The notes beneath the pieces are model-generated. The model was not told where the DNA came from, ran no database searches, and saw nothing but the letters and a program-made list of their open reading frames with translations. 64,000 bases of DNA from Methylophaga nitratireducenticrescens (lineage in GTDB: Bacteria > Pseudomonadota > Gammaproteobacteria > Nitrosococcales > Methylophagaceae). Made by a program: the position numbers and the translations under genes. The first letter of the stretch is position 1; each line of letters starts with the position of its first letter. The stretch is taken from contig NC_017857.3 in assembly GCF_000260985.4 (NCBI RefSeq), positions 1,178,001 to 1,242,000 of the forward strand, read 5' to 3'. Positions 39,636-48,122 of this stretch are shown one piece after another.

Positions 39636-40880
39636 TTAATTTTCAGCGTCGCTAAAAGCTTTCTCTGCTTCACGAATTGGTGCCAATGCCAGGCACCAGC
39701 CTATAGCCATAAATACCAGCATTCCCATTAGGATGGCTTCAAATTGGACCCCACCATCAATCAGGAAACCTAATACCGCGGGTGCCAGACCGGTTGAAAA
39801 CACCATAAAAGCTGATTTGACACTTCGCACGTGGCCTAAATGTTCACGACCCCAAAGTACGACTAATAAACTATCTACCACCGGCGATGACATGCCAAGT
39901 GAAATACCTGCACCAATCATTAGAATCAAAACACCCGCATTGCCCCCCATTAATACAGCCAAAATAATAGCTAATGCAAAAGGTGCCAGGTACAAGCGAG
40001 CTAGAAGCGATACTCCTAATTCATCTATCCAGCGGCCTCCAAGTAATGCTCCCGGAAAACGAGCAATGCCCATTGCCGTTAAACCTAATGCATATGCGGT
40101 GGTGGTGGCATTTAAGTCTATGGTCATTTGAGACTGAAAAATAAAAATGCCGGTTAAAGTGACTGGCAAAGCCATGGTTAATGGAATAATCAGCCAGAAA
40201 CGTTTTTCCAGCATCGGATTGGGGCCTTTGATTTTGTTACCACTGCTATCACGTTTGATTTCAGGAGCTTCAGGCCATTTAGCCAAAAGCAGTAACATCA
40301 ACCAAATGAGAAAAATGACGACGGCCACCGCCCACCAGATTTGCTGCCAGCTCAGCCAACCAATAAATAATGCGATAACTGGCGCCAGAATAATTTCACC
40401 CAGTGGCATGCCAAGACTCACTACCCCCAGAGCCCGACCACGATTAATGGTAAATTCGCGGCCTGCTAAGGTACTGCCAAAATGGGTCATCAACCCTTGA
40501 CCACATAACCGTACCAAGCCCAGACCAAATAAGGCTGGAATCAGCCATGGTGAAGTGGTCAGTAAAATCACGCCCGCCAATAATGCTGTCAGCACTAACA
40601 AGGCATATCGCCGGGGGGCAATCCAATCCAGCTTTTGGCCGAAATATAACACCAGAAATCCGCTTGCCATGGTCAGTGCGGCATAAACAGCCCCAAACTC
40701 ACCTGCTGATAAGTTTAATGAGTTGGCGATATCAGACTGAAACAAACCAATGAAAAAGCTTTGTCCAAGATTGCCAGTGAAAAGCGCAATAAAACCAATA
40801 GCCAGTAAACCAAACTGGCTGCGGATCAAACTGAAATAACTGTTAGCTTGAGGAGAAGTCATAAATTCCGATGATTGCAT
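39636..40880 (-). CDS. Major facilitator superfamily transporter
   Basis: 414 residues with twelve predicted membrane segments. Family signs: the GQKLDWIAPRR loop after helix 2 and the GGRWIDELG loop after helix 8, plus a hydrophilic centre (KWPEAPEIKRDSSGNKIKG). Substrate not evident; similar proteins export small organic molecules or carry organic acids. It starts at MQSSEFMTSPQ; the internal MTSPQ is an alternative. 247 bases upstream (40881-41127) are free of genes and carry repeat copy B. Confidence 0.87.
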   Translation of the reverse strand: MQSSEFMTSPQANSYFSLIRSQFGLLAIGFIALFTGNLGQSFFIGLFQSDIANSLNLSAGEFGAVYAALTMASGFLVLYFGQKLDWIAPRRYALLVLTALLAGVILLTTSPWLIPALFGLGLVRLCGQGLMTHFGSTLAGREFTINRGRALGVVSLGMPLGEIILAPVIALFIGWLSWQQIWWAVAVVIFLIWLMLLLLAKWPEAPEIKRDSSGNKIKGPNPMLEKRFWLIIPLTMALPVTLTGIFIFQSQMTIDLNATTTAYALGLTAMGIARFPGALLGGRWIDELGVSLLARLYLAPFALAIILAVLMGGNAGVLILMIGAGISLGMSSPVVDSLLVVLWGREHLGHVRSVKSAFMVFSTGLAPAVLGFLIDGGVQFEAILMGMLVFMAIGWCLALAPIREAEKAFSDAEN

Positions 40881-43350: not shown

Positions 43351-45672
43351 GTGTGGATTTTTGATATGAAATGGAAGTTAACTTCAGCTCTGCTGGTGAC
43401 GTTGTTGTTAACATTCAGTTTGATAACCGAAGCGGCTTGGGCCGAACCTGCAACTCCTCCCAATAACGAAAAACATTACTCAGCGCTTGCTGACACACTC
43501 GAAAATGAACAGTCCCGTGAAAAACTTATCGCAGAATTACGCGAATTGGCACAGGCAGCTGAAGCAATGGATGAAGAAGCCACTTCAGAAGAAGTGGTTG
43601 ATGAACCAACGTTTGCCAGACAGATTGCCAATACGACTCAATCCGTTGCGCAGCAGATTGTCTCAACAGTCGGGGTGGGTTTTTCTGCTGTAGCCGCAAT
43701 AGGTTCTGATGAAGCAGGCACATTTGACGGGCAGAACATGCTGGATGAAAGCTTCTTTTTACTGGTGGTGATTGCCAGTACGTTATTAATGTTTTATGTG
43801 CTGCGAAGTCTGGCGCGCCATGTTTTTCGTCGTGCCAATGATTGGGCTGAAGCGGAGGGTGACTATCCGGAAATTCGTAAATTCAGCACGATTTTACTGG
43901 CAGCCATAGTAGACTTACTCACAGTAGCCTTAGCATGGGTAGCTGGTTATGCCGTTGCCTTGTTTGCCGTTGGCAGCAATGGGGAAATGAATGTCAGTCA
44001 ATCGCTATTCCTCAATGCGTTTTTGGCGATTGAAATATTTAAGGTGATTCTCCGTACGGTATTTGCTGGACGTGATGATGCACTGCGTTTATTACCAATA
44101 TCTGCCGAAAGTGCCACTTACTGGCATATCTGGTTAGCACGTTTAACCAACTATATCGGTTATGGCATGTTGCTGATTGTGCCATTGGTCAATCTGAATA
44201 TTAATCCGGTAGCCGGCCAGTTGGTCAGTGTACTGGTGGTGTTAAGTGCATTTATCTATGCAGTTGTTGTGATCATGCAAAACCGTGTATCGGTTAAACA
44301 GCGTTTGCTCTTTCATGCACAACAATCCTCATTCAGCTTTTCAAGAGTCAGTTTGGGGATCCTGGCACGAAGCTGGCACATTCTGGGAATAGTGTATTTT
44401 GCAGTGTTAGCCGTAGCTTTATTACTGCGTCCGGAGGAAGCCCTGCCAATGATGCTAAAGGCCACTTTCCAGACGATTCTCGCGCTGGTGGTTGGTGGAT
44501 TGCTGGCGAAGTTCCTGGCGAAAACCATTGGTCGTCCGGTACATGTTTCAGAAGATTTGCGTTCACGTTTTCCGATGCTGGAACAACGGGTAAACGGGTT
44601 TGTACCAAATATCTATAAAACCTTACGAATTTTGCTGGTGGTTGTTGTTGCCGCCGTCATTTTGGATGCCTGGGGAATATTCAGTCTTACGGCATGGATG
44701 GCCTCAGAGGCGGGTATACACACTATCGGTACATTGATTAGTGTGGCTGCAATTCTGGTTGGAGCGATGGCAATATGGATTGTTTTGGCAAGCTGGATTG
44801 AGCACCGGCTTAATCCTGGTGATGAAACGCATTTGCCAACGGCAAGAGCCAAAACATTACTGACCATATTCCGTAATGCAGCGGCTATTGCACTTATCAT
44901 AATGACCGTGATGATTGTTCTGGCTGAAATTGGTGTCAATATTGGACCATTACTGGCTGGTGCAGGTGTGCTTGGTTTAGCCATTGGTTTTGGTGCTCAG
45001 AAACTGGTGCAAGATATTATTACCGGGATTTTTATCCAAATGGAAAATGCCATTAATGCAGGTGATATTGTTACTGCAGCAGGCATCACTGGTACGGCGG
45101 AGAAATTGACAATCCGTTCTTTAGGGCTGCGGGACCTTTCAGGAACCTATCATCTGATTCCATTTTCATCGGTAGATACTGTGTCTAACTTTATGCGCGA
45201 GTTTGCCTATCATGTAGGTGAATATGGTGTGGCATATCGTGAAGATACCGATCAGGTGATTGTGCATCTGCGTGAAGCCTTTGCCGAGTTAATGGCAGAT
45301 GCCGAGCAGCGTGAGAAAATTCTGGTCGATGAGCTGGAAGTTCATGGTATTACTGCTCTGGCAGATAGTTCAGTCAATATTCGGGTACGGATTAAAACCC
45401 TGCCGGGTACGCAGTGGGGTGTAGGCCGGGCTTATAATCGTCTGGTGAAACAGCATCTCGATGCAGCAGGGATTGAGATTCCATTCCCGCATATGACCAT
45501 TTACTTCGGTCAGGATAAAGATGGATCGGCTCCACCTGCGCCGCTGAAAATGATCGGAGATTCGGAGTCAAATTCTGCCATTCAGTTAGAGCAAAAACCT
45601 GAAAAAACAGAAAGTTCAAAATCATTGAAATCCAACCCCAAGGATAAGCAGGATTTTGATGAAGAACATTAG
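43351..45672 (+). CDS. Large MscS-family mechanosensitive channel
   Basis: 773 residues: signal peptide (ALLVTLLLTFSLITEAAWAEP), periplasmic region with a coiled-coil, about ten membrane segments, the pore helix GPLLAGAGVLGLAIGFGAQKLVQDIITG near residue 530, the beta domain FIQMENAINAGDIVTAAGITGTAEKL, and an acidic-basic disordered tail. Size and order resemble YbiO-type channels rather than the small MscS. It releases solutes on hypo-osmotic shock, in keeping with the ectoine genes. Start is a GTG 11 bases after AGGAG; an ATG lies five codons further on. Confidence 0.92.
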   Translation: MWIFDMKWKLTSALLVTLLLTFSLITEAAWAEPATPPNNEKHYSALADTLENEQSREKLIAELRELAQAAEAMDEEATSEEVVDEPTFARQIANTTQSVAQQIVSTVGVGFSAVAAIGSDEAGTFDGQNMLDESFFLLVVIASTLLMFYVLRSLARHVFRRANDWAEAEGDYPEIRKFSTILLAAIVDLLTVALAWVAGYAVALFAVGSNGEMNVSQSLFLNAFLAIEIFKVILRTVFAGRDDALRLLPISAESATYWHIWLARLTNYIGYGMLLIVPLVNLNINPVAGQLVSVLVVLSAFIYAVVVIMQNRVSVKQRLLFHAQQSSFSFSRVSLGILARSWHILGIVYFAVLAVALLLRPEEALPMMLKATFQTILALVVGGLLAKFLAKTIGRPVHVSEDLRSRFPMLEQRVNGFVPNIYKTLRILLVVVVAAVILDAWGIFSLTAWMASEAGIHTIGTLISVAAILVGAMAIWIVLASWIEHRLNPGDETHLPTARAKTLLTIFRNAAAIALIIMTVMIVLAEIGVNIGPLLAGAGVLGLAIGFGAQKLVQDIITGIFIQMENAINAGDIVTAAGITGTAEKLTIRSLGLRDLSGTYHLIPFSSVDTVSNFMREFAYHVGEYGVAYREDTDQVIVHLREAFAELMADAEQREKILVDELEVHGITALADSSVNIRVRIKTLPGTQWGVGRAYNRLVKQHLDAAGIEIPFPHMTIYFGQDKDGSAPPAPLKMIGDSESNSAIQLEQKPEKTESSKSLKSNPKDKQDFDEEH

Positions 45673-45691: not shown

Positions 45692-45727
45692 ACAAAACAC
45701 CCTGTTAATTTCAACAGGGTGTTTTGT
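45692..45727. terminator. Bidirectional rho-independent terminator
   Basis: AAAACACCCTGTT and the reverse-complementary AACAGGGTGTTTT form a long stem with a 6-base loop, between the convergent mscS gene and the interrupted gene at 45733. Confidence 0.9.
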
Positions 45728-45732
45728 TATGG

Positions 45733-46590
45733 CTAACCGTTCAGACGTTGCTGTATAAATCGCCGCATATTCCGGGTGCTGGTGCAGTTATCGCATTCAT
45801 CAAGTGTGGTTTGTATTGTTGATTGTGCTGAGAGGTAATCCTGTTTCAAATAAAGCAAGATAACGGTCATCAGTGTTTTATTCTGATAATTGGCCAGTAA
45901 ATCATCAACGACCAACCGCAGACCTGAATCAGCACTGAAATATCGCAGATCACTGGTATCGGCAATCAACGCCAGATTTAACGCCCAGAATGCTTTATCA
46001 GACTCACCTTGCAAAGCTGTTGCCAGAGCAAAACCAATTTTGGGCAAAGAAGCTTTGGGATCTTTTTGGGAGTGTGCTTTAAAAGCATTTATCGCTGTTG
46101 TCGACTCATAGCGTGATAACGCTTCCCAGCCATCAATATTGGAATAATTGGAAATAGACGAAGTGGATGGAGAAGCAGGCCGTGCTGCATTGGTTGTATA
46201 GCGTTTTACCGGCTCCGCATCTCGATAACCCTGAGAATAAATAACCGGTGCAATCAGGGTGATACTGTTACTTCGAAAACCATAATAGCCTGATCGATGA
46301 CGAGGCCGGGTAGTATCGTAATGTCAATAATACGGTTTATAACGAGGTTGTTTAAAGTGGTTCAGTCTGGGATCCAGTCCAAATGAACGGTGACCGGTGA
46401 TGCCGATTGATGGATGGCGGTAATGCCGGTTGCCAGAATAGCCATGGTGAGGTCAATTATGCAGATTCTGACCAAGTTGCACGTTCACCGACACATCGGC
46501 ATAACTGTTTTGACTGGGCACAAGCAGCATAAGCCCGCTAAGCAGGCTGGCGCTGAAAACGGAAACAAATAGGGTTTTACTGAATGACAT
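45733..46590 (-). pseudogene. Exported protein gene interrupted by two in-frame TGA codons
   Basis: The 286-codon frame from the ATG at 46590 to the TAG at 45733 is continuous except for TGA at 46455-46453 (codon 46) and TGA at 46326-46324 (codon 89). It begins with a good signal peptide (MSFSKTLFVSVFSASLLSGL, ending near SYADVSV), continues with His/Tyr/Arg-rich sequence on both sides of each TGA, and ends in helical repeats (GWEALSRYESTTAINAFKAH, KIGFALATALQGESDKAFWAL). Both TGAs lie in aromatic-rich surroundings where Trp (TGG) would fit. GAGG precedes the ATG. Most simply a decaying gene; readthrough cannot be excluded. Confidence 0.75.
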
Positions 46591-46739
46591 AGCCATTACC
46601 TCACAGTTGACTGGCTGATAATCATCAGACTGGTAACCGTGTTGATGGTTCGTTGCCCTGAATGTGAATTCAGGTAAAGCAATGTTTCAGCGAGCTTTTT
46701 GGTATCATGCGCGCTATCTTTTCTTCTTTAAAGTTCCTC

Positions 46740-48122
46740 ATGTCTGCTACTGATTTTTCATCGTTAAATTTACCTGCCGAGCAATTGGCTGTTCTTGATT
46801 CTCTTGGTTATAAGCAAATGACCGCTGTTCAGGCACAAAGCCTGCCGTTAATTCTGCAAGGCAAGGATTTGATTGCCCAGGCCAAAACCGGCAGTGGTAA
46901 AACCGCCGCCTTTGGTATTGGCTTATTACAAACTATTCAACCGGATTTCTTTGCTGTTCAGGCGCTGATTATTTGTCCTACTCGTGAATTAGCCGATCAG
47001 GTCGGTAAAGAGTTGCGCCGTTTGGGGCGTGGCATACCCAATCTGAAACTGGTGATGTTATGCGGCGGTAAACCGTTAGGACCACAAATTGCCTCATTGG
47101 AATATGGTGCACATATTGTGGTTGGTACACCTGGACGGATTCAGGATCATCTTAAAAAAGCCACCCTGAAACTCAATAAAGTCAAAACCGTGGTGCTGGA
47201 TGAAGCCGATCGCATGCTGGATATGGGCTTTGTTGATGCGATGCAGGAAATCATTGGTCAGACGCCAAGTTCCAGACAGACCTTGTTATTTTCAGCGACG
47301 TTTCCCGACAGCATCAAACAGATTAGTCGCAGCATACAACGCGATCCGGCACGGGTAACGGTTGAATCACAACATCAACAGGCTGTAATTGATCAGTTGT
47401 TTTATGAGATCAAAAAACATGAACGTAACAATGCCTTGTTAATGTTATTCCAGCACTATCAACCCAAAAACGCCATTGTGTTCTGCCACACCAAAATACA
47501 GTGCGATGAAGTCGCTGAGATGCTAAGAAATAAAAAAATCGATGCTCAGCCAATTCATGGTGATTTGGAACAGCGTGAACGAGATCAGGTGTTGGTGCGT
47601 TTTGCCAACCAGAGCTGCCCGGTTTTAGTTGCCACCGACGTGGCCGCACGCGGGCTGGATATCAAAGCAATTGAAATGGTGATCAATTATGAATTGCCCC
47701 GCGATCCCGAAGTATATATTCACCGCATTGGACGTACTGGTCGGGCGGGGGAGTCTGGTCTGGCAATGAGTCTGGTGGCTGAAGCTGAAGTACCACGCAT
47801 GCTAGCGATTGAGAAATATCAGAAAAAACCGTGTCGCTGTGATGTGCCGGCTTCATTGGATCGTGATGACAGTTATACGCTTGAAGCCGATATGGTAACT
47901 ATTCAGTTGGATGCGGGGCGTAAAAATAAACTCCGTCCTGGCGATATTCTGGGCGCTTTAACCGGTGATGCCGGGCTTGATGGCGCTGATATCGGCAAAA
48001 TTGATATTTTTGATATGTCGAGTTATGTCGCGGTGAGTAAATCTGCATTGCGACAGGCAATGAATTACTTGGCTGATGGCAAGGTTAAAGGTCGCGCTAT
48101 TCGCACCAGAAAAATTCGTTAA
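46740..48122 (+). CDS. dbpA: ATP-dependent RNA helicase DbpA
   Basis: Acts in 50S ribosome assembly, recruited by hairpin 92 of 23S rRNA. 460 residues with the Q motif MTAVQAQSLPLILQGKDLI, Walker A AKTGSGKTAAFG, VLDEADRMLDMGF, SATFP and HRIGRTGRAG; the C-terminal DbpA RNA-binding domain (about 385-458) has TIQLDAGRKNKLRPGDILGAL and IGKIDIFDMSSYVAVSK. The frame is open from 46707, but the ATG at 46740 gives the family start MSATDFSSLNLP. Confidence 0.95.
   Translation: MSATDFSSLNLPAEQLAVLDSLGYKQMTAVQAQSLPLILQGKDLIAQAKTGSGKTAAFGIGLLQTIQPDFFAVQALIICPTRELADQVGKELRRLGRGIPNLKLVMLCGGKPLGPQIASLEYGAHIVVGTPGRIQDHLKKATLKLNKVKTVVLDEADRMLDMGFVDAMQEIIGQTPSSRQTLLFSATFPDSIKQISRSIQRDPARVTVESQHQQAVIDQLFYEIKKHERNNALLMLFQHYQPKNAIVFCHTKIQCDEVAEMLRNKKIDAQPIHGDLEQRERDQVLVRFANQSCPVLVATDVAARGLDIKAIEMVINYELPRDPEVYIHRIGRTGRAGESGLAMSLVAEAEVPRMLAIEKYQKKPCRCDVPASLDRDDSYTLEADMVTIQLDAGRKNKLRPGDILGALTGDAGLDGADIGKIDIFDMSSYVAVSKSALRQAMNYLADGKVKGRAIRTRKIR

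Follow-up and report, generated by a model that had tools for sequence, protein, structure and literature searches.

Introduction

Unitary nonsense pseudogenes of bacteria are of the kind flagged by annotation pipelines: their stops occur in one lineage, relatives carry the intact gene at the same place, and dN/dS is near 1. The locus described here resembles them in each of these respects and differs from them in nothing notable, being a young example that has no frameshift. It lies in a window of 64,000 nucleotides (the whole stretch of DNA analyzed; contig NC_017857.3, positions 1,178,001 to 1,242,000) from a genome of Methylophaga nitratireducenticrescens, very probably that of strain JAM1. 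A sequence-only reading of this window had pointed to a frame interrupted by two TGA codons and had considered recent loss, UGA readthrough or, with less conviction, selenocysteine.

The most similar copies were found in two Methylophaga metagenome-assembled genomes, UBA2689 (DELT01000052.1) and EAC20 (NZSL01000012.1), each with 92% identity over 285 residues and the same neighbors. Unlike the window's gene, both copies (alignment rows G021 and G017, respectively) are free of stops and have Arg at codons 46 and 89. With regard to the encoded protein, the closest described class is that of the TPR-domain proteins: its C-terminal part is predicted as helical hairpins, while no profile match reached significance. 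Taken together, the data presented below make it very likely that what remains here is a unitary pseudogene: the sole copy, inactivated recently, of a gene for a secreted Methylophaga protein.

Results

The interrupted frame and its neighborhood

The frame occupies positions 45733 to 46590 of the window on the minus strand, beginning with an ATG at 46590 and comprising 285 codons and a TAG that ends at 45733. The coordinates given earlier were therefore correct; the strand had been left unstated, and the same interval on the plus strand contains many stops. The in-frame interruptions are TGA at codon 46 (46455-46453) and TGA at codon 89 (46326-46324), with no other stop in the frame. The reported lack of frameshifts was borne out by alignment with relatives. 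The gene might instead start at another in-frame ATG, located two codons further upstream at 46596, and GAGGT was seen by eye 5' of the start codon.

Codons 1 to 45 (46456-46590, minus strand) are still translatable and, as judged by eye, encode a signal peptide with a cleavage site close to SYA/DV, followed by some 14 more residues. Behind both stops lies the former C-terminal TPR-like helical domain with its CxxC motif (45736-46149, minus strand), as delimited by the alignment and the predicted structure. No in-frame ATG, GTG or TTG was found from the second stop to codon 182. Also behind the stops, a TTG-started ORF of 104 residues occupies window positions 45733-46047 on the minus strand; it is probably the tail of the dead gene rather than a gene of its own.

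On one side of the gene lies an MscS-type gene in convergent orientation (43351-45672) and on the other a DEAD-box helicase gene in divergent orientation (46707-48122), both named from a reading of their translations. Between the two convergent genes, an inverted repeat at 45693-45726 was noted by eye, and similar repeats were present at this place in five of the homologous loci (L002-L006). Its position and recurrence suggest a probable terminator common to the MscS-type gene and the pseudogene.

Arginine at both stop positions in relatives

A protein match was obtained in 14 of 38 genomes searched. The stops were present in the window's genome alone; the other 13 copies were open, among them one (L014) that ends at a contig end. 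Five relatives had open full-length frames with identities of 92, 92, 80, 66 and 65%. In all five, codon 46 was CGA, and codon 89 was CGA in three and CGG in two; hence, arginine was found at both places throughout. The Tyr/His-rich surroundings of the TGA codons had been taken to suggest Trp, a proposal that this alignment rejects. In eight more distant relatives, where the alignment is loose, codon 46 corresponded to Arg, Gln, His, Lys or a gap and codon 89 to Lys, Arg or His, with no Trp, Cys or stop at either. Since the three closest relatives have CGA at both positions, the two stops are most simply explained as CGA-to-TGA transitions on the window's own branch.

The surroundings were conserved as well. 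The two relatives compared in long stretches (G017 and G016) were collinear with the window around the gene. Both the MscS-type and the helicase genes were found within 1.5 kb on either side in seven loci (L001-L007), and the MscS-type gene alone in three (L009-L011), while neither was seen within that distance in L008 and L012-L014, some of whose sequences end early. Full-length frames in relatives, shared neighbors and collinearity together argue that the frame is more than a chance open one. In the window's own genome (G000), a single match was obtained by protein and by profile, with no intact copy elsewhere. Thus, relatives retain at this place an undamaged version of the frame that is disabled here.

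Distribution in the genus and class

A profile match was found in 14 of 24 genomes of the genus, or 10 of the 17 of good quality, and none in the remaining 10 (7 of the good ones). Therefore, the full-length gene is dispensable. The MscS-type gene was present in 8 of the 10 genomes without a profile match. In six of these (L100-L105), it had beside it, within 1.5 kb, a gene which we take to be YbaK-like, and inspection by eye of the 1.5 kb around the MscS-type gene in these six revealed no ORF of at least 90 residues resembling the secreted protein.

At the gene's place in the other two of these eight genomes, a short secreted protein of 117 residues was encoded on the plus strand (L098:1098-1481 in G019 and L099:1101-1478 in G011). 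It has a signal peptide, the GIxGHRSFG motif and a His/Arg-rich composition, without the TPR-like domain. Comparison of the two short forms by three methods gave a dN of 0.035 to 0.040, a dS of 0.19 to 0.30 and a dN/dS of 0.11 to 0.20. The short form thus looks to be under constraint, and the N-terminal part may work by itself.

Of 369 genomes drawn from the class, 12 matched the profile: two Methylophaga, three others that matched well (E values of 5e-25 to 6e-21) and seven that matched weakly, over 45 to 77 positions. The three good matches, at G275:C4:21911-22540, G169:C15:32783-33676 and G149:C1:19925-20365, belong to other families of the class; the domain therefore also occurs outside Methylophaga.

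The intact protein

In relatives, the protein consists of a signal peptide (recognized by eye), a His/Tyr/Arg-rich stretch that includes the GIxGHRSFG motif in most rows of the alignment, and the C-terminal domain; the CxxC motif was invariant in a 13-row alignment (A1). Searches of Pfam and NCBIfam gave nothing better than an E value of 0.02, and the best PDB profile match had an E value of 0.055. Structure prediction for the C-terminal domain, with three sequences, returned helical hairpins with a mean pLDDT of 66, a moderate model, and many of its top Foldseek matches were TPR domains, weak matches of which the best had an E value of 0.23. The C-terminal repeats described in the sequence-only reading were therefore roughly right, being predicted here as TPR-type hairpins with weak scores. 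For the full-length protein, the predicted structure was of low quality (mean pLDDT, 38). A literature search for the family in Methylophaga returned nothing naming Methylophaga. At a guess from its parts, the intact protein might have been an envelope-associated scaffold.

Selection on the gene since the stops

The dN/dS comparison proposed with the earlier reading was carried out with codon models in which the two stops were treated as missing data. With six sequences, the own-branch omega of the whole gene was 0.61, compared with 0.14 elsewhere (p = 0.0095), and did not differ from 1 (p = 0.52). For the C-terminal domain (last 136 codons) of the same six sequences, the values were 0.93 and 0.11 (p = 0.003; against 1, p = 0.94). 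A four-genome model gave 0.67 and 0.15 (p = 0.019; against 1, p = 0.63). In a three-genome model, the own-branch dN/dS of the gene was 0.93 with a 95% interval from about 0.2 (0.21) to over 3; omega values of 0.2 or less were rejected, and 0.25 and 3 were not. The order of the three closest sequences was weakly supported, by 2 to 3 log units.

For comparison, 34 control genes of the window were run in the three-genome model and had a median omega of 0.08 and a maximum of 0.26, the latter falling inside the wide interval of the focal gene. The same gene in two relatives had values of 0.10 and 0.16. The control set excluded ORFs of less than 150 residues, ORFs overlapping the focal gene and ORFs for which G017 or G016 lacked a match spanning more than 80% of the ORF. 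Because G016 covered about 15.7 to 63.2 kb of the window, the controls start at 17.4 kb, and 2 of 36 genes were dropped as having an own branch of less than 0.02 and an omega at the bound (54.6). For 6 of the 34 controls, omega = 1 was not rejected either; that test alone is therefore not telling, and the information lies in the point estimate, which was 0.61 to 0.93 in three models against 0.26 or less in the controls, with an interval of about 0.21 to over 3.

The own/background contrast of the four-genome model was also raised in two of six neighboring genes (39636-40880, p = 3e-5; 43366-45672, p = 0.02) and is thus partly a property of the method or of the branch. In both of these neighbors, however, the own-branch omega was below 1 (0.25, p = 0.01, and 0.17, p = 0.0002, respectively), which was not so for the focal gene. 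For two of the six neighbors, the own branch was too short for a judgment.

The window differed at 27 nucleotides from both nearest relatives where these agreed, and 15 of the differences were non-synonymous, including the two stops, while 12 were synonymous. At a few of the synonymous places (e.g., codons 16 and 122), the outgroups sided with the window, so the change there was in the relatives. For 28 neutral substitutions, 1.1 to 1.4 nonsense changes are expected, which makes two stops unremarkable. Codons 1 to 45 showed no own-specific non-synonymous difference; a count of 0 among 14 changed codons was not significant (P = 0.09). The lack of indels, and of any amino acid change among the first 45 residues, would be expected of a very young pseudogene but is no proof of inactivity. 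Overall, relaxed selection since the stops is supported, with a wide error.

The sequence context of the changes was also considered. On the window's own branch, C-to-T changes occurred at 5 of 24 ATCGA sites, compared with 95 of 1,970 CG sites. Codon 46 is among the five; codon 89 is outside the count, as the context in G016 differs there. Without codon 46, the count was 4 of 23 (p = 0.02). Because this context was picked after many had been viewed, the result is no more than a faint suggestion of a mutation hot spot, which might be a methylated site.

Sequencing error and wider decay

An intact gene with sequencing or assembly errors at both stops would be a trivial explanation, and internal stops in assemblies are commonly artefacts (PMC11017572). 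However, JAM1 has been through pyrosequencing and a second round with PacBio at over 260x, with its pseudogenes inspected manually (PMC5918138). Sequencing twice by these means makes an error unlikely, and two faulty places would leave the other amino acid differences of the gene unexplained. The assignment of the genome to JAM1 is based on published qPCR amplicons of M. nitratireducenticrescens. That of narG1 (JAM1/GP59) was recovered exactly, at its published length of 149 bases, in 1 of 21 genomes searched; in the window's own genome, that of JAM1 tagH was likewise exact, at 119 bases, and that of GP59 nirK was missing. The JAM1 paper places nirK of strain GP59 in a stretch between two prophages and gives JAM1 as being without prophage (PMC5918138).

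Nor did any other conserved ORF of the window turn up with stops well inside it. Matches in the window were obtained for 66 of 86 ORFs of G017 and 48 of 67 ORFs of G016, and other stops, seen in flagged rows with more than 55% identity, lay before the probable start or, in one case, three codons before the end. An error at the stops, named in the sequence-only reading as something that would overturn it, is accordingly very improbable. Wider decay of the window was likewise considered and rejected, as a second conserved ORF with stops well inside was not found.

Readthrough and other ways of reading UGA

Translational readthrough would require that UGA, the leakiest stop, be decoded, in many cases as Trp, with an efficiency that still yields enough full-length protein. 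In a study of Escherichia coli, UGA is the most error-prone stop, is most often read as Trp and reaches up to 80% readthrough at certain positions under stress (PMC11126739). At the locus itself, there is no frameshift behind the stops, and both stops are followed by C. A C after the stop codon is a weak termination context. These points have to be set against several others: the gene is free of internal stops in all 13 other genomes that carry it, readthrough rates would multiply over two stops, Trp would stand in for an ancestral Arg, the own-branch omega behind the stops was 0.61 to 0.93, and no tRNA with anticodon UCA was present among the 39 tRNA hits listed (Aragorn; 150 of 173 candidates were scored at first). 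Anticodons CUA and UUA were also absent from these hits, so that they contain no suppressor tRNA of the sort that the earlier reading had proposed to look for. As for programmed readthrough, a single genome of the 14 that carry the gene has the stop, and the analysis detected no constraint downstream of it. Positive evidence for the readthrough suggested earlier was thus not obtained, and we regard it as highly unlikely. A milder version, in which UGA readthrough sustains low, condition-dependent expression of the frame, Arg is replaced by Trp or some different residue in a tolerant His/Tyr/Arg-rich stretch, and the gene is switched down rather than lost, seems equally doubtful.

Even with the full-length gene inactivated, the 45-codon remnant might still be translated and exported, yielding a short peptide that has its own function. 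The absence of own-specific non-synonymous differences in this part would agree with such a role, as would the natural short form without the TPR-like domain in G011 and G019, with its seemingly constrained dN/dS of 0.11 to 0.20. Nevertheless, the 0 of 14 changed codons did not reach significance (P = 0.09), and the remnant stops short of the GIxGHRSFG motif, which the short form retains. We regard a functional remnant as very unlikely.

Insertion of selenocysteine at one or both UGA codons has the codon itself in its favor and nothing more. In the window's own genome, the best match to SelB scored 191 bits against a cut-off of 242, and the best match to tRNA-Sec scored 44.9 against a cut-off of 47 and coincided with the tRNA-Ser with anticodon TGA identified by Aragorn. 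The five closest relatives have Arg at these places, and Cys was not seen there in any of the 13 other genomes that carry the gene. This option of the sequence-only reading is hence exceedingly improbable.

Least credible of all is a reassignment of UGA to Trp in this genome, for which the two codons are the sole argument, since TGA ends 11 of 37 window genes matched in both compared genomes (a count of the window genes' own ends, not those of their relatives, and including the focal gene, which ends in TAG), the gene's own Trp codons 155 and 202 are TGG, the tRNA-Trp seen has anticodon CCA, and relatives have Arg.

TadA-type A-to-I editing of the UGA codons was also rejected. Neither stop has the editing motif, TACG, and the residue before the change was Arg rather than Trp.

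Discussion

Recent loss, one of the options raised at the outset, is the reading that agrees with the data: at two places an Arg codon was converted to TGA, in both cases exclusively on the window's own branch, no frameshift followed, and the gene's own dN/dS is near 1. The proposed course is that a C-to-T transition in each of two arginine codons created the TGA stops, after which ribosomes would stop after 45 codons and the remaining frame would drift, not yet hit by a frameshift. Presumably, then, no functional product is made. Most likely, this is ordinary gene loss rather than a stop codon that has been reassigned or is decoded in a special way, and in particular the recent nonsense inactivation of a dispensable gene. 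It is the ancestral residue, the control set and the selection test that tell decay from recoding here; otherwise, the locus would add little beyond its annotation.

The family to which the gene belongs encodes secreted proteins, has a patchy distribution within Methylophaga and frequently lies next to an MscS-type channel gene; it is uncharacterized by the family and literature searches. Given the short form or the absence of the gene in other genomes of the genus, the full-length gene has been shortened or is absent elsewhere in Methylophaga too. Strain JAM1 would represent a natural strain without the protein of this gene family.
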